Source of the DNA: Schizochytrium sp. TIO01
Lineage: Eukaryota > Sar > Bigyra > Thraustochytrida > Thraustochytriidae
Assembly (NCBI GenBank): GCA_004764695.1
Contig: SMSO01000037.1
Location: 3,222,337-3,286,336 of the forward strand
Direction: 5' to 3'
Length of the DNA stretch: 64,000 nucleotides
Below are positions 11,394 to 64,000 of this stretch, piece after piece. The notes under the pieces are model-generated. The model searched no databases and was not told the origin of the DNA. It saw nothing but the letters and a program-made list of their open reading frames with translations. Positions within the stretch are counted from its first letter, which is position 1. Each line of letters starts with the position of its first letter. The position numbers were made by a program, and so were the translations under genes.

Positions 11394-13370
11394 ATGAAAG
11401 CAGAAGCCTTCGTCTGGACTTTGCTGATTTCTGTATTTGGGCCTGTGGTTACGGTTGCAGAGCCAGAGTTTGTTGACAAGATACCCAATGGCAGAAACGT
11501 GCGAGCAGCAGATGGCAGTGCATGGCCTGCAGTTGGTCACGCCGAGGCCCTTGGAGGAGGTGAGCATCGAAACCCATTCGGCAATGACTTTGATGACGCA
11601 GGTAAAATATGGACCAAGCTTCTCTGTGAAATGGATAGTGATGGTGATGGGCGTAGTAATGGGGTAGAACTCGGAGACCCCTACTGTGAGTGGATGGAAG
11701 GAGATACTCCATTTCTAACGAGTGGAATTACGAATCCAGGAGTTGCAAATGCATTCGCTGAAGCTTCCTCATACTGTACTAATTATGAAGAACCCTCCGG
11801 AACTCTTCTGTTGAATGTAACTATGCCGAACTTTACAGTGCCCGGTGGTGCTTCGCCGAGCATTCGATACTTGTTCGATGAGCTCCCCTCAGGAACAAAC
11901 TACATTACTCGAATTTCCGCCTTGGTAGATCAAATTGAGATTGTCCTAAGCATGCGAATTTATGTCTGCGAGGATACCTTTGCGATTCGTAATAGTCTGT
12001 CATCGCCTGTGCAGGTAGATACCCTCGAAGGTTGTGGCAGTACGCAACTCATTTATTCATGGGCTATTGGAGGCAGTAGCTTTTGTATGCCGTCTGAAGT
12101 TGGCTTAGAATTCAACGGTACTGAACACGTTTTTGTTCTTGAGATTGACTACGACAACCCATATGGACGCTCTAGTAAAGTAGACTCGTCCGGTCTAAGT
12201 TTGTACTATTCTCAGTCTAGTGACGTCGACAGTTCTTTTCAGCCAGCAGCTTGGGGCTACCTTGCAGTAGACGAAAACGCGCTCTCGATTCCACCACAGG
12301 CATCAGAGTATGAAGTTACAGTTTCAGAAATACTGCCAGACTCTATCTCTAATTCGGGTGTACAAGTCATCGCTGTTATGAACAATGCCAATTCTTTGGC
12401 CACTAAAATCTGGACTAGTGTGACTCCTGCGAACTCGTCTTCCAATTCTTTCCTGTCGTCCTGCTCATCAAATTACGTTGCGTACCTCCTACAAACTGAG
12501 GTAGTGGACACTGAGATAACATTAGATGCTGGTGATCGACTCAATCTTCATTGTCAGTACAACTCTGCAAGCGAAAGCTCTACGATTGTGGGGGGCGAGG
12601 GAAGTTCCAACGAGCGTTGCGTGGGCATGTTTTTATACTATCCAAGCACAGGGTTATCTTTACAAATTACTTCAAGTGATATTGCAGATTCATCCGGAGC
12701 TTTAGAATTAAGCTATGACTCTCAGCTCTCATGCGGAAGTGGTCCTGTTTTTGCAGCCAGCTTCAGTTCTTGGATTTCTGGTGCCCCATGGCAACTCGGT
12801 TTGCACGCTATGATGATGTTTGTAGCTTGGATTCTACTTGTACCTGGTGCAACTCTCATGCCTGTAATTCTTAAACCTCTGAAAGGAAAAACATGGTTCG
12901 TGAGCCATCGATTCACTGCTCTCCTCGCAGTTTTCCTAACTTTGATCGGGTTCCTTGTTATTGTTGTCTATAAAGCTGGTGCGAATTTCGAGACTACCCA
13001 TGGAATGTCAGGTCTCGCAGTTCTTGTTCTTGTTCTTATGCACATTGTACTAGCTCTACTCCGCCCTCACCCTGGCGAGCGCTACCGCAATACTTGGGAA
13101 TGGGCTCACCACCTTCTCGGACGCACTTTAATGATTCTTGGGCTCGTTACTGTTGTTCTGGGCATTGAGGAGTTCGAACTTTTCAATATGCCCAGTGATT
13201 CAGATGATTCATTAAAGATAGCGAGCGTTGTTATTTCAGCGAGCGCCATCGCAGTGTCGCTTGTAGCACTAGGAAAACGAATTTGGGCAAGTATTAGAGG
13301 AACTAGTGAGTCGCTTCAGCAGACTCCTGCTAGTAATCACGCGGACAAAACACAGATTGGCCATACATAA
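11394..13370 (+). CDS. Temptin / copper-monooxygenase-like / cytochrome b561 fusion
   Basis: Single exon of 658 residues. A signal peptide (1-22) precedes a temptin-like Cys domain (about 25-100, DSDGDGRSNGVELGDP). Two domains of the PHM/DBH copper type II monooxygenase fold follow (about 128-270 and 300-425), recognisable from the YDNPYG and VGGEGSS motifs. A cytochrome b561-type membrane core comes last (about 465-600). The six copper-ligand positions of active PHM/DBH enzymes appear replaced: the His-His pair by L185-S186, the EIHY His by D252, the HxH pair by N331 and N333, and the Met by R408. The monooxygenase is therefore probably inactive. The b561 histidines that can bind two hemes are present (H471, H505, H536, H572/H573). 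A role as a transmembrane electron carrier with a binding ectodomain is inferred. Confidence 0.87.
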   Translation: MKAEAFVWTLLISVFGPVVTVAEPEFVDKIPNGRNVRAADGSAWPAVGHAEALGGGEHRNPFGNDFDDAGKIWTKLLCEMDSDGDGRSNGVELGDPYCEWMEGDTPFLTSGITNPGVANAFAEASSYCTNYEEPSGTLLLNVTMPNFTVPGGASPSIRYLFDELPSGTNYITRISALVDQIEIVLSMRIYVCEDTFAIRNSLSSPVQVDTLEGCGSTQLIYSWAIGGSSFCMPSEVGLEFNGTEHVFVLEIDYDNPYGRSSKVDSSGLSLYYSQSSDVDSSFQPAAWGYLAVDENALSIPPQASEYEVTVSEILPDSISNSGVQVIAVMNNANSLATKIWTSVTPANSSSNSFLSSCSSNYVAYLLQTEVVDTEITLDAGDRLNLHCQYNSASESSTIVGGEGSSNERCVGMFLYYPSTGLSLQITSSDIADSSGALELSYDSQLSCGSGPVFAASFSSWISGAPWQLGLHAMMMFVAWILLVPGATLMPVILKPLKGKTWFVSHRFTALLAVFLTLIGFLVIVVYKAGANFETTHGMSGLAVLVLVLMHIVLALLRPHPGERYRNTWEWAHHLLGRTLMILGLVTVVLGIEEFELFNMPSDSDDSLKIASVVISASAIAVSLVALGKRIWASIRGTSESLQQTPASNHADKTQIGHT

Positions 13371-43893: not shown

Positions 43894-46800
43894 TTAACCA
43901 CGGAGACTTGAAGATGTGGATACATCAAATTCTCCCTCTCGTTTCTTTGCCTCGCGGATTTTGCGAACGGTAGAGGTAAAGTTATTACTTGAAATTCTCT
44001 CTCCAGAAAGATTGTCTATTCCAACACCAAGAATTTGTGTAATAAGCTCTTCTAGCTTGGTACTAGAGTTTGCCTCTCCTGATAAGCGTTTGAGCTTCTC
44101 AGGTGACATACTCAAAATGTCATGAAAATGGTTCTGGACCAGCGACCAGAGTTTACTAGTCTTGCTCCCGCCAGGTCCTCTCTGTAATTTTCCAAAAGCC
44201 ATATCTTGTTTTCGTATCGCTGAACGCAATACACTTTGCAAGAGCAGAGCAAAGGGTGGAACCGAGTCTACCAAGTCGCCAATCGCAGCCTTGCTCAAGA
44301 TGTACAACTGTGTTAGTTTAGTACATTTTGCCGTGATTTCGTGACGTTTACCAGACAAAACGGCCTTGTGACCAAAGAAATTGCCCTTGGTGTGCTTGAA
44401 GAGCTTGGCGCGGTCAAAAGTTAGTTTTCCTTCTTCGTCGGGCTGTGGCCATGGATCTTCATAAACAAGCACATCGCCATTGACAATAAAGTAAATCAAG
44501 CTTCCAATATCCCCATGATGCACAATCACTGTATTTGGCAATGCAAGCTGTGGGTGCATCACCTGAATCAGATCAGCAGTGAATGTTGCTGTCTGGTCTT
44601 TAAATATTGGTAATGCTTCTACTGCTTGCTGATGAATTGTGATAATAATCTCCTGCCGAAGTGATGGACTGAGCGCACTCAGCAAATTCCTTTCGTCAAA
44701 AACAGATTTTAACGACAGCGAATAAGCATAGCATGATTTGCATTCTTTCCGCAGCATGCGTGGAATACCTTGTTCTGAAAGGTACTCATCGAGCTCATTC
44801 ATTTTTGCCTTATAAAGAGCGTCAGCAATATCCAACTGAGAAATGAGGCTGGCGATACTACCGACAACGTATCCGAAAATCGTAGCACCCATGATCATAC
44901 TCATAATTGCGTAGAGACGTTCTCCGTTTGTAGTAGGTGAAATATCACCATAACCAACTGTTGTCATCGTTGTAAATGTCCAGTATAAACTTGCAATGTA
45001 CTTGCTCGATACATCTTTGTCTGTGTCTGGAGAAAGGCCAAGCTGAACATACCAATGATCCCTAATGTCATCTGAAGCAGACGCTGCGTAGAACCAAAAG
45101 CACGCAAATAAATGTGCAACAAATGTAATTTGCATAAAAAGGGAGCCCAATTTTGTTACAGCAGAGGGGAGCTGAATCTCAGCATCAAGGTCCCCGAGGA
45201 TTTTCCGAAGCTTCAACAGACGAATAAGCTTCAAAAGGCGAATCATTCGAAAAATTTTGATAAGCTTGAAGCTTCGCAATGCCTCCTCATCAGCACTTGC
45301 CAAGAATGCCGTAAGCACTACATCGAATGGAAATGTTGAAAGAAAGTCAATCAGAAACCAACCCTTCAGATACTGGATGGCGATAGAACGCGGAATAGCA
45401 ATGATTACATCTTGATCAGGACTTTCAAAACCAGTGCGGAAAGCAAGAATTATATCAATCGAAAAGAACACATCTACTGTTACATCCACGAATTCGGAAA
45501 ATCCTTCCGAAGCTTGCGAGAAACCAAGACGATATGGAACCAACAGCACCGAGTATACAATAAAAAACGCAATGAGAAGGTCCCATTTGATCTTGTATAC
45601 ATAGCCTGGAGGAATTATCCAAAGCTCTTTGATGACACGGTCATGCTCCATTTCGAGATCTTCGCACACCCTTCCTCCCACGGTCGGAACCATAAGAAGA
45701 GTTGGAGATCGAACTGGTTTCATAGGATTCGAACTCTGTTCTTTATGATCATCATCACGCTGATGCGGAAGCTGAGGTGACGTGACAGACGTTGGAGACC
45801 TTGGATTCTGGACTCCAGGATTGATCCCGCCATCGTATTCATTTGAGCCCCAATGGCGTACATAAGACGCTCTACTTCCCCTTTGGTCTAACCACTGCAT
45901 AGTTTTGGGAATGTGAAAGTTGGAAAGGAGGCCATCAGATTTTAAATTGGGGACCCGCACCCGAGACTTCGTAGCGTTGAATTTCCCAGATTTCCATGAC
46001 ACCTCGAACTGCGAACTTGGGATTTTGACTGGATCATTCAAAATACTCGAGGGCACAGAATTTTCTCCTGAATGCCCAGTGTCCATTAAAGGGGGGTCAC
46101 TAATTGGAAAGACCCTAGCGTTATGCTGACCAGGTGGTGATACCTCATCAGCTTCTTTCAGTGCCATTTCTTCTGCATACTCAGGCGTGTGAAAAAGGAG
46201 ACTGCCTGCGCGACTCTGCTGGGATTGTAATATCACGCGGCGAATCTTAATTATTTGTTTCGGTGCAGGGCCCGTCTTTTGGTTGCTGAAGTCTGTACTT
46301 GTAGAAAAGATGCCCTTGCGCTGTGTTTTATTAATCAATTCCCGTTGTGCCTGACTTTGAAATTTACCTGTAATGTCATAAGCAATCATATTCGACAATA
46401 CCATTCTTCCTATTCTGCGCTCAACTGCTGCTGCACTTTGGTGCATTCGCCCATCAACAGTTACCTTGGACTTGATATGACGGTCAGAATGGGGGAAGTA
46501 TTCCGTCACCGAAGCGATTGATTCGGTTACGAATTGGCAATGCTCGTCACAACGCTTCCGAAAACGCAATGCACTTGTCGGGTACATGTATATAGCATAT
46601 TCCATGTGTTCTTTAGAAATAGAGAGTAAATCACAAGTTTGGTTTGCTCGAAAAGTAGCTTCATGTGGTTTGTTATGCAAGACCCCAACTTCTCCAAAGT
46701 TGGAGCCTTTGTTATATAACCCTACAACTACAGCATGCTTGAGTTTGGCACTGTCATGAAGGGCTAGACGATGTCGAGACATGTTTCGATTAGACATGCC

Positions 46801-48609
46801 TAACTGTCTTTTTACCATATTGCGAACTTCCTGAGGCCTTGGGAGTTCAATCTTTCGTTTAGAACCAGGCGAAGAGGTACTAGCATTGCTATGGTACCCT
46901 GGGCCAAGGCTTTCTCCTGAGTCATTTCCATTTGAGTTAAGGTTTCCCGCCTCTTCAGAAGACAACACTAAAGCTCCTTTCGCAGTTGCTTGACGTTCTA
47001 ATCCAAGTTTAACAAGAACACTCTCCTCTTCGTCCTTTTGGATTCGGCGCCGTTTGTGCTCATTTTCATTGATCTCGAGAACAATCGCCTCAACTTTCCC
47101 TTTTAATATCATATAAATATCAACGCCCACGGAATCTTGCTCACAAATTACCTCACCAGAAAGTGCTAGTAAAACTTTCGATCGCGCCATTATATACGCT
47201 ACAAAGCTGCTATCTTCGTATTTGAGAAAGTTAATTGATCTTGCTTTATGGCCATGTACATGAAGAATAACAGTCTCTGTGAGATGCGAAGGCAGCTGAC
47301 CAAGAATATTAGCATCATCGAAAATCGATTCACGCGTAAGAACATAGTCATAGTATTTGCGTACTCTTCGTTGTAGCCGTCGAGGGAGATTGCGATCTCG
47401 CATGTACTGTTTTAATCTGTCCATACGAGTTCGATAAGCAGAGGCGCGCGGGTCAAATGTCTCTAAGAATGCTGAGATGTTGGCAATGATGAAACCGAAG
47501 CAAGTTGCTCCTACAACCTGAACAAAGATGGAATACATGCGCTCATAGTCATTTGCTGCGTGGAGGTCGCCGTAACCTACGGCCATCATCGTTGCAACTG
47601 TCCAATAGAAGCTAGCAAGATACTGTGCTGCAATAGGTTTATCGAGAATTCCGCTAACCATAACCCAAGTCTGATCCGTATTGTCGTTTAATGAAGCTGT
47701 GAAATACCAAAAGCAAGCCAACAGATGGCAAACAAATATGATTTGAAGAAGCAACTTCAATAGTCGTTGTAATGCTGGGTTCAAGCTGAAGATACCTTCC
47801 AGACTTGAACCAAACTTTTTCAACTTGATCACACGGACCAATTTTACTAATCTCACGAGGCGAAAAAATTTGATCAGCTTAAGAGATCTTAACGAGCTGC
47901 TTGCACCGCCATCGGAGCCAATAATTGCACCAGCAATATGATCAATAGGAAGTGTGGATGCAAAATCAATAATAAACCACCTACGCATGTAGTGCGTAGC
48001 GATAAACCGATGGCGGACTTCAAGCTCATCATTGTGCCAGTATGCTGTAAAAAAACTAAGTGCAATATCAATAAAAAACATCGCATCTACAAACCAATCG
48101 AAACCCGACCCGAAACCCGTAGCTTCTACACTGAAGCCAATACGAAACGGGATAATAATAACACTGTACATAATAAGGGAGCTAACAAAGAGATCCCATA
48201 GAACTTTTCGGGTACTTTGTGGATGAAGGACAAGCCTTGGAAGAGGTTCTTCTTCATGCTCAATTATCAAAGAAGATTTTTCATGTGTTTCATCATCAGA
48301 GCTTTCGTCACCACTTTCTGAGGCGCTCACAATCGTGTCTTTGATGCTCTTGTCATCATCACCTTCCAGCTCTGAAACACGAAAGCTAGGTTTTAATAAG
48401 AGTTTTTCAATGGAGCTTTCAGGCTGCTCACGCTCACTTTGTGCTGGCCGGAGCACATCGTCATCGTCACTAAGACCGTGCAGAAAAGTTGTTGCTTTCT
48501 TCTCTAGCTTGAGATTTGTCAACAAGGTCACATGATTTCTTGTTGCACTACTGTTTCCTTCTCGAGTGAATCCTCCAATTAACTTTCCACCGATTGATCC
48601 TTCTGGCAT
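43894..48609 (-). CDS. Two-repeat voltage-sensor/CNBD potassium channel
   Basis: Single exon of 1,571 residues with two complete channel modules in tandem. Module one: S1 near 130, an Arg/Lys-rich S4 (KLIKFFRLVRLVKLVRVIKL, about 245-270), a pore with filter VGYGD near 341, and a CNBD about 480-690. Module two: S1 near 995, S4 (KLIKIFRMIRLLKLIRLLKL, about 1115-1135), VGYGD near 1218, and a CNBD about 1340-1445. A polar linker of about 270 residues separates them. GYGD filters indicate K selectivity, and the architecture is of the EAG/HCN/CNG superfamily. The Arg that binds the cyclic-nucleotide phosphate is His in both CNBDs (H649, H1423), so direct gating by cAMP or cGMP is doubtful. Two such chains would form a four-module pore. 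Plasma or ciliary membrane location is inferred. Confidence 0.95.
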   Translation of the reverse strand: MPEGSIGGKLIGGFTREGNSSATRNHVTLLTNLKLEKKATTFLHGLSDDDDVLRPAQSEREQPESSIEKLLLKPSFRVSELEGDDDKSIKDTIVSASESGDESSDDETHEKSSLIIEHEEEPLPRLVLHPQSTRKVLWDLFVSSLIMYSVIIIPFRIGFSVEATGFGSGFDWFVDAMFFIDIALSFFTAYWHNDELEVRHRFIATHYMRRWFIIDFASTLPIDHIAGAIIGSDGGASSSLRSLKLIKFFRLVRLVKLVRVIKLKKFGSSLEGIFSLNPALQRLLKLLLQIIFVCHLLACFWYFTASLNDNTDQTWVMVSGILDKPIAAQYLASFYWTVATMMAVGYGDLHAANDYERMYSIFVQVVGATCFGFIIANISAFLETFDPRASAYRTRMDRLKQYMRDRNLPRRLQRRVRKYYDYVLTRESIFDDANILGQLPSHLTETVILHVHGHKARSINFLKYEDSSFVAYIMARSKVLLALSGEVICEQDSVGVDIYMILKGKVEAIVLEINENEHKRRRIQKDEEESVLVKLGLERQATAKGALVLSSEEAGNLNSNGNDSGESLGPGYHSNASTSSPGSKRKIELPRPQEVRNMVKRQLGMSNRNMSRHRLALHDSAKLKHAVVVGLYNKGSNFGEVGVLHNKPHEATFRANQTCDLLSISKEHMEYAIYMYPTSALRFRKRCDEHCQFVTESIASVTEYFPHSDRHIKSKVTVDGRMHQSAAAVERRIGRMVLSNMIAYDITGKFQSQAQRELINKTQRKGIFSTSTDFSNQKTGPAPKQIIKIRRVILQSQQSRAGSLLFHTPEYAEEMALKEADEVSPPGQHNARVFPISDPPLMDTGHSGENSVPSSILNDPVKIPSSQFEVSWKSGKFNATKSRVRVPNLKSDGLLSNFHIPKTMQWLDQRGSRASYVRHWGSNEYDGGINPGVQNPRSPTSVTSPQLPHQRDDDHKEQSSNPMKPVRSPTLLMVPTVGGRVCEDLEMEHDRVIKELWIIPPGYVYKIKWDLLIAFFIVYSVLLVPYRLGFSQASEGFSEFVDVTVDVFFSIDIILAFRTGFESPDQDVIIAIPRSIAIQYLKGWFLIDFLSTFPFDVVLTAFLASADEEALRSFKLIKIFRMIRLLKLIRLLKLRKILGDLDAEIQLPSAVTKLGSLFMQITFVAHLFACFWFYAASASDDIRDHWYVQLGLSPDTDKDVSSKYIASLYWTFTTMTTVGYGDISPTTNGERLYAIMSMIMGATIFGYVVGSIASLISQLDIADALYKAKMNELDEYLSEQGIPRMLRKECKSCYAYSLSLKSVFDERNLLSALSPSLRQEIIITIHQQAVEALPIFKDQTATFTADLIQVMHPQLALPNTVIVHHGDIGSLIYFIVNGDVLVYEDPWPQPDEEGKLTFDRAKLFKHTKGNFFGHKAVLSGKRHEITAKCTKLTQLYILSKAAIGDLVDSVPPFALLLQSVLRSAIRKQDMAFGKLQRGPGGSKTSKLWSLVQNHFHDILSMSPEKLKRLSGEANSSTKLEELITQILGVGIDNLSGERISSNNFTSTVRKIREAKKREGEFDVSTSSSLRG

Positions 48610-56929: not shown

Positions 56930-59700
56930 CCTAATCTAAAATTCAGCTGATCCGTTTGACCTTCGCTTTTGCAGGTATACTCGGACGAGACCAACGTTTA
57001 TGTATGAGGATGTCTTAACTCTCCAAAAGACTCTAATCAGCGACTCTGTGACTGAGCAAGCACCTGCAAGAGCCCAGAGTAGACAACCTGGACAAGGATG
57101 CGCTGCTGAGTTGGCAGCTCTCCCAGCAAGTAAGCGTCAGCACAAACAATCACTGGCGTCGAGCGAAGTCCCTCCGGCAAGGAGACTTCTTTCTCTTTCG
57201 ACAACGGTCTGGGTCGGCCAATCGACGTAGGAGAAGGCAAGCAAGACCTTCGTAGTTTGAAGTTCGCGCGATTGTCTCCAGACTTCTTCTTGTTTCTTTC
57301 TCTTTTCTATCTCTCGTGTCTTTCTCTTTTGCCTGGGTCTAATTAAACCTTATAAAATGCGGTCGTATCGCGACACACAAAGTAAATTTGGCCCCCTTTC
57401 TTACATGGAATCCACGTATGGAGGCTTTGAATGTGCAGCTCACTGCAATAAAGTGTTCTAGGTACAGTGTAATGGTGCGCAATAATGTCGAGAAAAGAAA
57501 AGTATAGGGCTATTTATGTTTCGTTATTTTCCAGGGAAGACTTATTTAACAAATGGTATAGCTCCCCCAAGAGTAGGTTCTAGGTATCACTGTGATGATA
57601 CAGTGTGATTGAATTTTTGCTTGAATTTGGGTCCGCTATTTTGCTTAAATACGAATAAGATTTTGGAAACATCGCAGACAAATACAGGAGAACAAGCTCT
57701 GCAATAACTCAGTCGCATTCTGGTTCGTATGATAATTATTTGCATATTAAGTGAGCCTGAATGCCGCGAGATTTGAAGTATTCAAGCAACCAAGAGATCT
57801 GTTAAAAGAGATAATTTAGTGCAAAATCATGAGAGAGTGCATTGGCATGAGACTGATATGCATGATAAATGTGGAAGACATGTGCTTTAATTCCAACTGA
57901 TTTGTTGGAAATTATTGCCATGAATTCTAAATTTTTACATTTGCTCAAACCCTGTTCAATTTCAGTCATCACATATGGGTTTAGACACTGATTCGAGAGC
58001 CTAGTATTGTAGTCATATATTTGAGGAAATTCGCTCAGATCAGAATCAATGGTACTTGACATCAGCTTGAATTTATGAGCATTGATGTTAAAATTGTCTC
58101 GAGATAGTTCGAGATCAACTGATTCTAATTAACTGCTGCTACAAAATTAATTGCATAAAGAATCGCAGCATACAAATATAGCGACCAGGAAGAGAAGGGG
58201 GTTTACGGCTCGAGCGGAAGCAACTTCCAGAGAGACCTTCCGTTTCACTAGAGAATTGTGCTTTCGATTCAATATAGATTTGCATGATGATCCTAAGGTA
58301 TGATATATGTAACATTAAGAGTAAAATAGTTATAGTAGGTGTATATCAGAAACTATAGTAGTGATGATACGTTCCTGATAGTTCCGACGGTGCGTTCCCG
58401 AGCACCACCGACTCCTTGTAAAGAGGGCAGGAGTAAGCACGACTAAGTCTACTACTATGAGCCACAAAGCAAAGCAACATCTCAGCAAATGGCCGCTCCC
58501 AAATGAAGATTTCGTGTTGCCTCCTAGGCAGTAAGTACATATAAGTTGAAAGTTCTATGAAGCATATTATAACACAAAAACTTATACAATACAAGCCTGA
58601 TTTATTCACATTTTAATAGACAACAACGAGCAGTTGCATGTGCTAGGTTGTATTTCTTGTGTGGAGGATCTTAGGTAGCACTGATTTTGCAGGTTTGCAG
58701 CTTTATTTTCGAAACGATTGGAGTTTGGAAATAACTAACCTGGGTGAAAAGACAAAACTCTTTGCAGGAAATTTAGTGATAGCTCATCCGTAACCAAGGC
58801 TGAGGGTTGATATCGTCATTCCCCAATGTTTTCCAGCGGTCAATACGTGACATTTGTCGAAGGCACGAAACATCGACTCGCCCTCTATGTTACTACCGTG
58901 CACGATATCGATCGAGCACCGGCACAACCCCAATTTTTTCTGGCAAGAGCTGTCACGCTCCCTTTCTTGAAATTGCCACGTTTTATGACCCTTTCGCAGC
59001 CTTCGGTAATTCCTATTCTAGCCCTTCAGGCCTTCTATCTCTGCTACTCTACTGGCTTCTGTTGGGCTTTTTGCTGCAACCCCGGCATCCACTTTGCGAG
59101 GCCTGCGCTCCCATCGTCCCTGTGGTCGGTAAAACCCACTCAAGCACAGTACCGTGCACGATAATGTTGCATAGTATCACAATTGATTTGCAAGAGGAGG
59201 AAAGAAACAAAGAGATTGCTTGAAGTGTCTAAGGTAATGGGTAGTAATGCCCATTTATTAGGAACTCTAGCAATGTCTACATTCGTACTAATAGCACCTA
59301 TATGTTATATGGTTAGAAAGGAGAATGAGCGACTTCGAATTCATTGATTCAAAACCGCGACAGCCCGGTCTTGTGACTGCGTCCTCCGCGGGTCTTCGCG
59401 GGAGATCTGTGGCTGGCAGTATAGCTGCTGGCTACTGGCTGGAGGGACAGTTCCGGCCACCGCTGGCGTCTTTCCTCTGCTGCTGTGTGCCGCCCTGAGC
59501 AAGGCGTGCCACGGCAGAGTCCGTTTTGAAGAGTGGAAATCTAGCCATTTTCAAACTTGGACCTGGCCGGTCTTTGCTGTGCTTGTGACTCGAAGTCTTC
59601 GCTTCCTCTCTTGTTTGTGAGAAGGGAGATATCGGTCCCTAGATCAAAACTAATCGCACTGGCTAATTTCCAAGGACACGGACATTTTGATCTAGACGCA
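56930..59700. other. Intergenic, 2.8 kb
   Basis: Spacer between divergent SRP19 and TTL genes. Two ATG-started ORFs of about 110-140 codons overlap in different frames at 58807-59223 and lack any recognisable domain, so neither is called. An ORF at 57000-57230 just upstream of SRP19 is likewise unsupported. Confidence 0.5.
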
Positions 59701-62700
59701 ATGGCCAAATCCAAGGTGAAAGATGAGTTAGACGAAAAGTCCAAGGTCAAGGTCAAGTCCACGAAGGAGGTTGCTACAAAGAAGAAATCCAAGACGAGTT
59801 CAAAATCAACAGCATCAGAATCTGACGCTAAAACTAAGTCCAAGTCGAAGAAATCCTCATCGACATCCAAAAAAGTATCCAAGAAGGCTGAGCCGGTTGC
59901 GGAGGGGGTCAACACGAAAGTTGACGCCAACGCAATTATCGATACAAAGCCAAATGCAGATGAAAATTCGTCTTCCACGATTGAAGATGTGACTGCTGCC
60001 GCTGCTGCCACGGCAGCTTCCGCAGTTACAGCAACTGCAGAGGCAATTGCTGAGAATGCCTCGGGTGAGTCTATTGCAGTACAAGCACCGCCGACACCAC
60101 AATTAGTGAAAAGTTCTGAAGAAGAATTTCAAGGTCCTCTGGAGGAGGAAACTACAACTTCAAAGGCCAGCACTTTGCCTACTATTGCACAGGAAGGTGC
60201 TGTGGAGACTAGGTCATCTGAGGAGCTTTTGCAGACCCCCCAAGATGTGAATGACGACAGCAAAAATGAGGCAGTGGATGCTTCTGAGGCGTTCGCAGCA
60301 GTGCCAGTAGAAAACTCTGCAACCGCAGATGAGCAAAGTTTGACTGAAGATATCCAGCCAGTCCTAAGTGAGACTTCAACAATGGAGGCCAAGGCTGAGG
60401 AAGCTGAGCAGGCACCCAAAAATGGAGCAAATGCGACTGAGCTAGAATTAGCTTCAGAGAGCATCAGAGAGTCTAAAGCAGGCTCCGCTAAGAGTGACGA
60501 AGAAGGGTCTGAAGAAGAGTCTGGCAATGGCGATGAGAAAAATTCTGAAGGTGGGTCTGACAACGAGGAAGAAGAATCTGACAATGCCGAATCTGAAGCC
60601 GAATCTGGCTCGGGTGATGAGCATAATGCCAAAGAGGACTCCGAAGAAGAGAATGCCTCCGAAGAGGAGGAAGGCTCTGAAGAAGAGGAGGGCTCTGAAG
60701 AAGAGGAGGGCTCTGAAGAAGAGGAGGGCTCTGAAGAAGAGGAGGGCTCTGAAGACGAGGAGGGCTCTGAAGAAGAGGAGGCTCTGAAGAAGAGGAGGGC
60801 TCTGAAGAAGAGGAGGGCTCTGAAGAAGAGGAGGGCTCTGAAGAAGAGGGGGGCTCTGAAGAAGAGGAGGGCTCTGAAGAAGAGGAGGGCTCTGAAGAAG
60901 AGGAGGGCTCTGAAGAAGAGGGGGGCTCTGAAGAAGAGGAGGGCTCTGAAGAAGAGGGGGGCTCTGAAGAAGAGGAGGGCTCTGAAGAAGAGGAGGGCTC
61001 TGAAGAAGAGGAAGGGCTCTGAAGAAGAGGAAGGCTCTGAAGAAGGGAAGGCTCTGAAGAAGAGGAAGGCTCTGAAGAAGAGGAAGGCTCTGAAGGAGAG
61101 AAAGAGTCTGGCGATGAGCAGTCAAAGGATGGATCTGGATCTGAATCTGGATCTGGGTCGGAAGATAATGAAGAAGAAGCGGCAAATTCTGAGGATGAGG
61201 GCTCATCATCTGAAGAAGGGTCAATCTCTGGCCCTGGCGGTGATGATGGAGAGGAAGAGGAACATTCAGCTTCTGGGTCTGAAAACTCCAATTCTGAGGG
61301 CACAGATAGTGACGATGAGGTGGAAGTTCCCCTCGAGGTTTCTGACGACGATAGTGAAGAAGGAAATGAACAGGAATCAGGATCTGATCAAGACAGTGAC
61401 TTGGGCTCAGAAGAAGGGTCTGTATCAAATTCTGGTGAAGAAGAATTTGAGGATGTCGAAGCCCAAAAAGATAGTGCATCCTCATCATCAGAGGAAGAGG
61501 AGAGTGACGAAGAAGACGAAGATGACAACACATCTGGCTCAAACTCTGGATCTGGATCTGATAGTGAGCATGAGGAGCAGGACAAATTAGAGCGCGGCAA
61601 ACTCTCAGAAAGAGGTGGGCTTAAGCTCCGTAAGAATGCACAAAAGAAACCTGCGGTTCGCTCTGTAAAATCATCCCGTTCCGTGAAATCCAAAAAGGGC
61701 GCTGGTCGATTCAACCGAATCAAAGAACTCCTGGCGGTGCCCGCAACTTTGTTGAAAAGTGGAGCCCATATCCGCGCAACTATGCAATTGAAAAAAGACA
61801 TTGAAGAAATTAAACGTTGGTGGAAAACAAGGGGCAAACGGTTGCCTGTGAAGAAGGGAAAGAAAGGAAAGAAGGGCGCCGCTGTGGCTGACCCGATGCC
61901 TAAGTCAGTTAAAATTGCAATTGCGCGCATTGCTGGACTTTTCTTCCTTGTCTTGGCTTTGCTAGGTGGATTCTTTGGTACGGTGTCAGTATTGGCCTTG
62001 GGCTCTGGTTCCGGAAGCAAATCTCGCAATGCTGGACCCAGCTATGACCCACGCTGGTTGCAACCTGGTATTGACGCCGATTCATTAATGGATCTAATTC
62101 ATATTCATGAGCACAAAATTACAAACGAGTCGACTGTCAAGATCAAGCGTCTTCCAGGTCTTGATCCTCCACAATACATGTCCAAGACAGCGGCAGATCT
62201 GGTGCAGATTCGTCGGCCTGCTGTTCGCAAGATGCGTCCGGAGGATACTCGTGCGGTGCGTACTTTTGGTTGTCTGCGTGACGGTTGCCGTGGTCTCGCT
62301 ATCGAAGACCTTCTTGATCGTGGTTGGCAAATGCGTTTTCGCGCGGCCCAGAACGGTGATACATATAAAAGTATCAACTATCGAGTCACTTTCTTGCTTA
62401 CTGATACCACCCAGCTCAACCATATGCAAAAGCTACGCCCTGACCTCTACAAGAATATCTATGAGGAGTACGAAGGAAAGAGTTATCTCACGGCCTTTCA
62501 GGGTGGTGACGCAATTGGTGGAAATAAAGGTCAGCAGCTCAAGGTCAAGGAAAGCTTTGTCAAAAAATATGGTTGTAAGTACAATGACCTTGGTATCTCT
62601 CCTATGTCTTACCGTCTTTATCGTGATGATGAGTGTAATGACTTGGCTCGCTTGGAAGCCAATGGAATCACGTGGCTTCTCAAACCAGAAACAGGTTCGC

Positions 62701-64000
62701 AGGGTCAGGGTATTACCTTTCACTCTGAAGTTGCAAGTGTTATGAGCAAAGTACCTCAATTCTTTCCTTGTAAGAGGGCGACCTGGAAACCGACTGAACG
62801 TTACCTCGTGCAGGAATATCTTGAGAAGCCGCTTTTGTTGAAAAAGTGCAAATTCGATGTCCGTGTGTACATGCTTATTTCTTCCAGTAACCCGTACCTT
62901 GTGTGGTACCATGAAGGATACTTGCGCCGTGCGCTTGCAGAGTATGCACCTATGTCCAAGGATCGCCGGGTTTACCTGACCAACACTCACTTCCAGAGTA
63001 TGAAGAAGGGTTTTAAGCTTTCGGATCACATTTGGCCGTTTGCTATGATGCAAGACCACTTGCGTGAACACGATAAAACCGGTGCACACTACGTTGAAAC
63101 AATGCTCAACCCGTATATCAAAAAGGTCGCCTTGCTAATCTTCCAGTCTGCGCGGCCAAAATTCATCAAACGCAAGGGTACCTTCCATATCTTCGGTATC
63201 GATTTCATGATTGATGCGGCCTATCACACCTGGTTCATTGAGTCCAACGGCTACCCAGGTTTCACTTGGAGTATCAACTTCGATTCACGTCAGATGGTGG
63301 AGGAATACTTTAACCTTGCGCAGCAGACACATGAGAACCCGCAGTTCTATACTTTGATGCGCTATGGCGATCGCTACGGCAGTTTTGAGATGATCTTTAA
63401 TGAACTTGAGGAGGAGCGCACGCGTGTTGTCTACAACCCATGTAATGAGTTCAAGAATAACCGTGACTACAGTGCTCCTTTGAAGATAGCAAACCGCCGC
63501 TTTGCAAAGTACACGGGTAAAACCGGTTCCTTGGAGAAGTTTGGAACATTCCAAAATGGCGTCCCCGGTCTCGAGACGATGGCTGGACACAAGGGAGAGA
63601 GCGTGTTGGCGCAAGTTGATTTTTTTAACTCCTTTGGCTGTGATGCGCGTAAACTTAAATACATGCCACCCACCTACATGCTCTACGACAATGAGGACTG
63701 TAAGGCCTTCTTCCAGGTCAAATCAAAGCAGAGATGGCTTCTCAAACCCATTGACAGCATGGGTGGCGATAATGTGCGTCTTTATTCTACGATTGAAGAA
63801 CTCCGGGAGGATTTTGGAGAGTGTGGCATGTCTCGCAAGGGCGACGTGATTGCACAAAAGTTCATCTCGAATCGTCAGCTATTTGACAATAAATGGTGGG
63901 ACATGAAGGTATTCCTACTCGTTTCTACGACTCGTCCTTTTATGGTTTTCTATCACCGCGGATACCTCCGCACTTCAAAAATTAACCAAGATTCTAGCAT
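59701..64000 (+). CDS. Membrane-anchored tandem TTL-domain protein (3' truncated, frame breaks in repeat)
   Basis: The start is ATG 59701. The cytosolic part is Lys/Ser-rich, then Ala/Glu-rich, then an 18-bp repeat encoding GSEEEE (60673-61091). The frame is 1 before the repeat and 3 after it. A missing G near 60778, an extra G near 61014 and a missing base near 61045 link them; without these the reading turns into (ALKKRR)n and stops at 61590. Frame 3 is then open to the window end. A basic stretch (RWWKTRGKRLPVKKGKKGKK) precedes a transmembrane helix (about 61912-62000), so what follows should be luminal. TTL module one (about 62260-63310) has WLLKPETGSQGQGI, KFDVRVYMLI, FGIDFMIDAAY and FIESNGYPG. 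Module two starts near 63620 (WLLKPIDSMGGDN, WWDMKVFLLV) and is cut off. This is ATP-grasp ligase chemistry; the substrate is unknown. Confidence 0.8.
60661..61098. repeat. 18-bp coding tandem repeat, about 24 units
   Basis: Units of GGCTCTGAAGAAGAGGAG, many identical, run with net loss of one base. The sense frame encodes GSEEEE. The repeat is free of stops in two forward frames and all three reverse frames, which explains the long antisense ORFs over it. Confidence 0.95.

Follow-up and report, generated by a model that had tools for sequence, protein, structure and literature searches.

What might be the role of a protein that retains the two-domain scaffold of a copper monooxygenase and carries none of the residues that bind copper? 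In the window (the whole 64,000-nucleotide stretch of DNA that was analysed), positions 11394..13370 of the plus strand form a single intact open reading frame, from an ATG to a stop codon, which encodes 658 amino acids with a predicted secreted ectodomain. Its N terminus reads as a likely signal peptide, MKAEAFVWTLLISVFGPVVTVAE (11394..11462, hydrophobic residues 3-23), and is followed on the same strand by a Temptin_C domain (residues 22-117, 11457..11744; PF24784, E 2.7e-32), a result that bears out the temptin-like N-terminal domain suspected in the initial annotation. Next come the N-terminal (CuH) domain of the PHM/DBH type (residues 141-258, 11814..12167; PF01082 Cu2_monooxygen, E 6.6e-12) and the C-terminal (CuM) domain (residues 295-423, 12276..12662; PF03712 Cu2_monoox_C, E 1.7e-11), both also delimited by alignment with DBH and both copper-less, and finally a cytochrome b561 core (residues 470-597, 12801..13184; PF03188 Cytochrom_B561, E 4.7e-10). 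All four Pfam matches exceed their curated cut-offs.

The six positions that bind copper in PHM and DBH are all occupied by other residues. The CuH His-His pair is replaced by L185-S186 (11946..11951) and the third CuH His by D252 (12147..12149); in the CuM domain, the His-x-His motif has become N331-A-N333 (12384..12392) and the Met has become R408 (12615..12617). The initial annotation had named exactly these residues, and alignments with DBH, PHM and the paralogues now confirm both its numbering and the complete replacement. First, a phmmer alignment of human DBH (4zel) with residues 132-429 (E 2.1e-17) placed all six ligand positions, a profile of five paralogues searched against DBH (E 1.1e-32) agreed with these placements, and a separate DBH alignment returned identical columns. 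Second, the same profile, aligned with rat PHM, agreed at the CuH ligands and at the CuM Met; this alignment did not extend over the PHM His-x-His stretch. Third, DBH and the ligand-complete paralogue are identical at 80 aligned columns, of which the window protein keeps 50 of the 74 non-ligand residues (68%) and none of the six ligands (hypergeometric p = 0.002), so that the loss centres on the copper sites. Only two His, H245 and H386, are found within residues 131-440, where the ligand-complete paralogue has eight. H386 is not a substitute copper ligand, since each of the five paralogues has it, the ligand-complete one among them.

Outside the copper sites, several features of the active enzymes are kept. 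Both Pfam halves stand in the same order as in DBH and rat PHM (1opm), approximately 300 residues align with DBH, and the VGGxG and YxNP landmarks (the latter given earlier as YDNP) are common to the window protein and PHM/DBH. The claim that the Cys pattern is kept holds in part: C192, C214, C387 and C409 are shared with DBH, whereas the remaining disulfide positions of DBH have been lost. A single-sequence AlphaFold2 model of the ectodomain (residues 22-439) had a pLDDT of 30. Unlike PHM and DBH, the window protein has Temptin_C in front, where a DOMON would stand, and b561 behind, in addition to its six replaced ligands.

Both Cu2_monooxygenase domains of an active PHM/DBH enzyme are thus present and both ligand sets, CuH and CuM, are absent. 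In PHM, mutation of a single CuH His abolishes activity, and crystal work found that apo-PHM and CuH mutants bind no peptide substrate (PMC6123673). Because the loss of one CuH His already inactivates PHM, and because apo-PHM binds no peptide, a copper monooxygenase reaction by the window protein appears effectively excluded. The same findings make it unlikely that the domain binds substrate in the ancestral sense, as the initial annotation had allowed. Annotators should be cautious here: on domain matches alone the protein would be labelled a copper monooxygenase, almost certainly wrongly.

When did the copper sites disappear? A search of the genome (64 Mb in 37 contigs) found six PHM-domain genes. 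Five of them, including the window gene, have the identical order Temptin_C, PHM and b561, and all five map to a single contig, C36, with the window gene at 3,233,730 and the other four at 3,377,711-3,394,119; in a comparison of the window locus with this cluster for shared synteny, the coding region alone matched. The four others (L002 to L005) are 41-75% identical to the window copy. At positions 185, 186, 252, 331, 333 and 408, in window-protein numbering, L003 reads H, H, H, H, H and M (six ligands kept), L002 reads E, T, H, Y, R and M (two kept), L004 reads E, T, Q, F, R and M (one kept) and L005 reads Q, S, D, N, N and L (none kept), next to L, S, D, N, N and R in the window copy (none kept). 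Read from these aligned columns, the five-member family shows a graded loss of ligands. In the phylogenetic tree, two pairs are well supported, one of the window copy and L005 and the other of L002 and L004; the tree does not fix the root, the order in which L003 and these two copper-poor pairs branched or, in consequence, the number of independent ligand losses.

With 75% identity to the window copy, L005 also has S186, D252, N331 and N333 in common with it. Because these four replacements are shared, copper was lost before the two genes split: as judged from these residues, their ancestor is shown to have been already without at least the ligands at 186, 252, 331 and 333, and their subsequent divergence therefore took place in a copper-less protein. 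Over this divergence, dN/dS (estimated by NG86, YN00 and ML; YN00 gave no value for b561) was 0.11-0.14 for the whole protein and about 0.09-0.13 for the PHM-like region, whose bootstrap 95% interval was 0.09-0.20; b561, at about 0.08-0.09, lay close to the PHM-like value. Because dS is 0.8-1.4, near saturation, these ratios are approximate, yet they are far below 1 by all three methods. At the amino acid level, the PHM-like region has changed less (82-83% identity) than b561 (72%). On these estimates, neutral evolution of the copper-less region is excluded, and strong purifying selection has acted on it after the copper was lost. The replacements, like the invariance described below, are read from five genes of one genome.

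Could the gene instead be a decaying pseudogene, or its missing ligands an error of sequencing? The frame of the related L003 is broken, which might invite such a reading. However, the window frame is intact, its PHM-like region shows the low dN/dS given above over a dS of about 1, and the landmarks and all the heme His are kept. A local error that removed the ligands, the event that could have overturned the initial annotation, was rejected, as an independent gene, L005, carries the same S, D, N and N. Because of these shared replacements and the low dN/dS, we exclude both error and decay, to which we attach almost no credence.

We also considered whether D252, S186, N331 and N333 might hold another metal (e.g., Ca, Fe or Zn) or a redox group in the vacated sites, creating a new enzyme. 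The residues in question are common to the window copy and L005, D, N and S are able to bind hard metals, and 21 of the 22 positions in the strand that surrounds the former His-x-His are identical between the two copies, compared with 82% for the region. Nevertheless, N and S are weak ligands and the region retains just two His; moreover, the former Met position is R408 in the window copy and L in L005, and the L002/L004 pair has E, T, Y or F, and R at ligand sites. We therefore regard this possibility as very improbable.

If the ectodomain is no longer an enzyme, attention turns to the membrane part. Hydropathy analysis indicated, after the signal-like stretch at residues 3-23, five transmembrane stretches between residues 468 and 630, and a five-helix membrane domain surrounds the b561 core at approximately 12795-13283 (from hydropathy and a low-confidence model). 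The N-terminal part is predicted to be extracellular, with four heme His within the first four helices. These are H471 (12804..12806), H505 (12906..12908), H536 (12999..13001) and H572 (13107..13109), which, as the initial annotation held, remain in place: all four are invariant among the five paralogues, as is H573 adjoining the last. R557 and R565 (13062..13088), the proposed cytosolic ascorbate contacts, are likewise invariant among the five. Modelled from a single sequence with AlphaFold2, the membrane part showed five helices at low confidence (pLDDT 63.5), and a fold search with this model matched b561 (4o7g; Z 8.7, rmsd 4.8, 135 residues aligned) at a level that unrelated helical bundles also reach.

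This arrangement resembles that of the CYBDOM proteins (SDR2/CG8399, Arabidopsis HYP1 and CRR), which likewise have a signal peptide, one or more extracellular modules and then a b561 core, in which helices one to four carry the four heme His (PMC10691727). HYP1 uses cytosolic ascorbate as the electron source for the reduction of ferric and cupric acceptors, and its modelled ascorbate contacts, R299 and R307, are eight residues apart (PMC10784544); by this spacing only, R557 and R565 are likely to be the equivalent Arg pair. The extracellular modules differ: CYBDOM has a DOMON, whereas the window protein has the dead PHM pair and Temptin_C. A Pfam scan of the window protein at E up to 1 found no DOMON, and no third, extracellular pair of heme ligands is evident in it. 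As a separate observation, the one DOMON match of the genome (L032; G000:C13:3982931-3983239 and flanks) is followed by a b561-like pattern of helices and His that is CYBDOM-like, although Pfam calls only the DOMON there.

We propose, with about even confidence, that the window protein moves electrons across the membrane in the manner of a CYBDOM protein, with its catalytically dead PHM/DBH scaffold acting as the extracellular module. Against this reading stands the lack of an evident DOMON or third heme ligand pair outside the membrane, which would leave the final electron step without an explanation. The gene would have arisen by duplication from a copper-dependent PHM-b561 fusion, which L003 still resembles, and in that ancestor the protein's own b561 presumably fed electrons straight to the copper monooxygenase. 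In animals, b561 is a separate protein that supplies electrons to DBH/PHM across the vesicle membrane; the fusion unites this electron donor/enzyme pair in one chain. In the window lineage, the copper chemistry would have been given up and the pair of beta-sandwiches retained above the outer heme, for structure or for docking. The part outside the cell or in the lumen would then consist of Temptin_C followed by the copper-free scaffold, and the membrane part of a working di-heme b561, through which electrons probably pass from cytosolic ascorbate via two b hemes to an external acceptor that is not PHM copper. This acceptor would most likely be ferric or cupric ions or their chelates, as in CYBDOM; otherwise, it might be a docked partner protein. 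The initial annotation had suggested selection for a non-copper use coupled to transmembrane electron transfer, and the ligand loss, the constraint and the intact heme His are consistent with this, the part that now seems unlikely being substrate binding of the ancestral kind.

The Temptin_C domain raises another possibility, namely, that the protein is a surface receptor or adhesion molecule, in which Temptin_C and the dead PHM pair would bind a peptide, a pheromone or a surface ligand, and b561 would chiefly anchor the protein or report binding by a redox signal. The temptin of Aplysia is small and secreted; in the window protein, the shared Temptin_C domain is one module of a predicted membrane protein. 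Both the membership of temptin in a mollusc pheromone complex and the existence of secreted temptin-like proteins in oomycetes (PMC3091767) would fit a receptor. So would the acidic loop DSDGDGRSNGVELGD within Temptin_C (11634-11678), which is probably calcium-binding and in which D81, D83, D85, E92 and D95 are identical in all five paralogues; moreover, the family members form a cluster and have diversified, which is common in families of surface proteins. A mere b561 anchor, however, would not require four invariant heme His and an invariant Arg pair, the peptide binding of ancestral PHM requires copper (PMC6123673), and no ligand is known. We therefore consider a receptor unlikely. As an observation in its own right, a Temptin_C-like stretch elsewhere in the genome (L014; G000:C13, around 3588110) shares one reading frame with a lipid desaturase and with a cytochrome b5 domain; this is possibly a fusion, the gene model being uncertain.

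Might the dead copy instead be a partner subunit, or prozyme? It would pair with an L003-type paralogue or with PAM and contribute electrons, stability or regulation in trans. DBH itself is an oligomer, strong constraint on a copper-less PHM-like region would suit a protein interface, and the genome holds both a ligand-complete paralogue and a ligand-complete PAM. L003 (G000:C36:3377651-3379644, minus strand), however, has one frame break directly before the CuM Met, which might represent a recent pseudogene or an assembly error; its two open pieces were joined end to end for the alignment. Because L003 is the only ligand-complete b561 fusion and is split into two frames, the assembly contains no intact one, and a like active partner may not exist. 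The paralogues are also strongly divergent from one another. Such pairing therefore seems decidedly unlikely to us.

Returning to the electron carrier, we may ask whether the change extends beyond the window lineage. We speculate, more tentatively and with some doubt, that a family-wide switch took place, in which the copper sites of a PHM-b561 fusion monooxygenase disappeared stepwise, perhaps twice, and copper-free transmembrane redox proteins arose whose dead fold binds the acceptor. Two losses are conceivable because the window/L005 and L002/L004 pairs carry different replacements. The family forms a natural series with six, two, one and no ligands, and such a series could serve as a probe both of the copper-free PHM fold and of a change of acceptor by b561.

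The sixth PHM-domain gene (L001; G000:C32:437762-440107, minus strand) encodes a bifunctional PHM-PAL protein, that is, PAM, and was used as a control. It shares the two PHM domains with the window protein and differs in that it keeps all six ligands and has PAL, a beta-propeller, in place of b561. According to a review, stramenopiles (diatoms, oomycetes and brown algae) are completely without PAM (PMC6529398); L001, in a genome whose eukaryotic size and PfaD-type matches fit a thraustochytrid (a labyrinthulomycete and so a stramenopile), may be an exception. Another member of the DBH family that was freed from its ancestral function is the DBH-like MOXD2, which, according to two reports, was lost by inactivation in apes, whales and birds (PMC4125168, PMC4830563). 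MOXD2 differs from the window gene in having been inactivated, whereas the window frame is intact and constrained.

PHM/DBH, b561, CYBDOM and Temptin are each already known. In the open-access literature, outside which most subscription journals lie, we found no description of a temptin-PHM-b561 fusion or of total ligand loss under purifying selection within one, and their combination is apparently undescribed there. No relatives were confirmed in IMG/VR or in a collection of bacterial and archaeal genomes.

Several other features of the window and genome were noted. At 59557-63998 on the plus strand of the window, two overlapping frames, 59557-61590 and 61320-63998, read through an acidic repeat region, and the latter frame leads into a protein that has two TTL-like stretches and extends past the window end; a frame break within the repeat is possible. 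On the minus strand, a 1571-amino-acid open reading frame (43894-48609) contains two ion-channel and two cyclic-nucleotide-binding stretches, which correspond to a tandem fusion of two CNG/HCN-like channel units. Elsewhere in the genome, there are two strong matches to PUFA synthases of the PfaD type.
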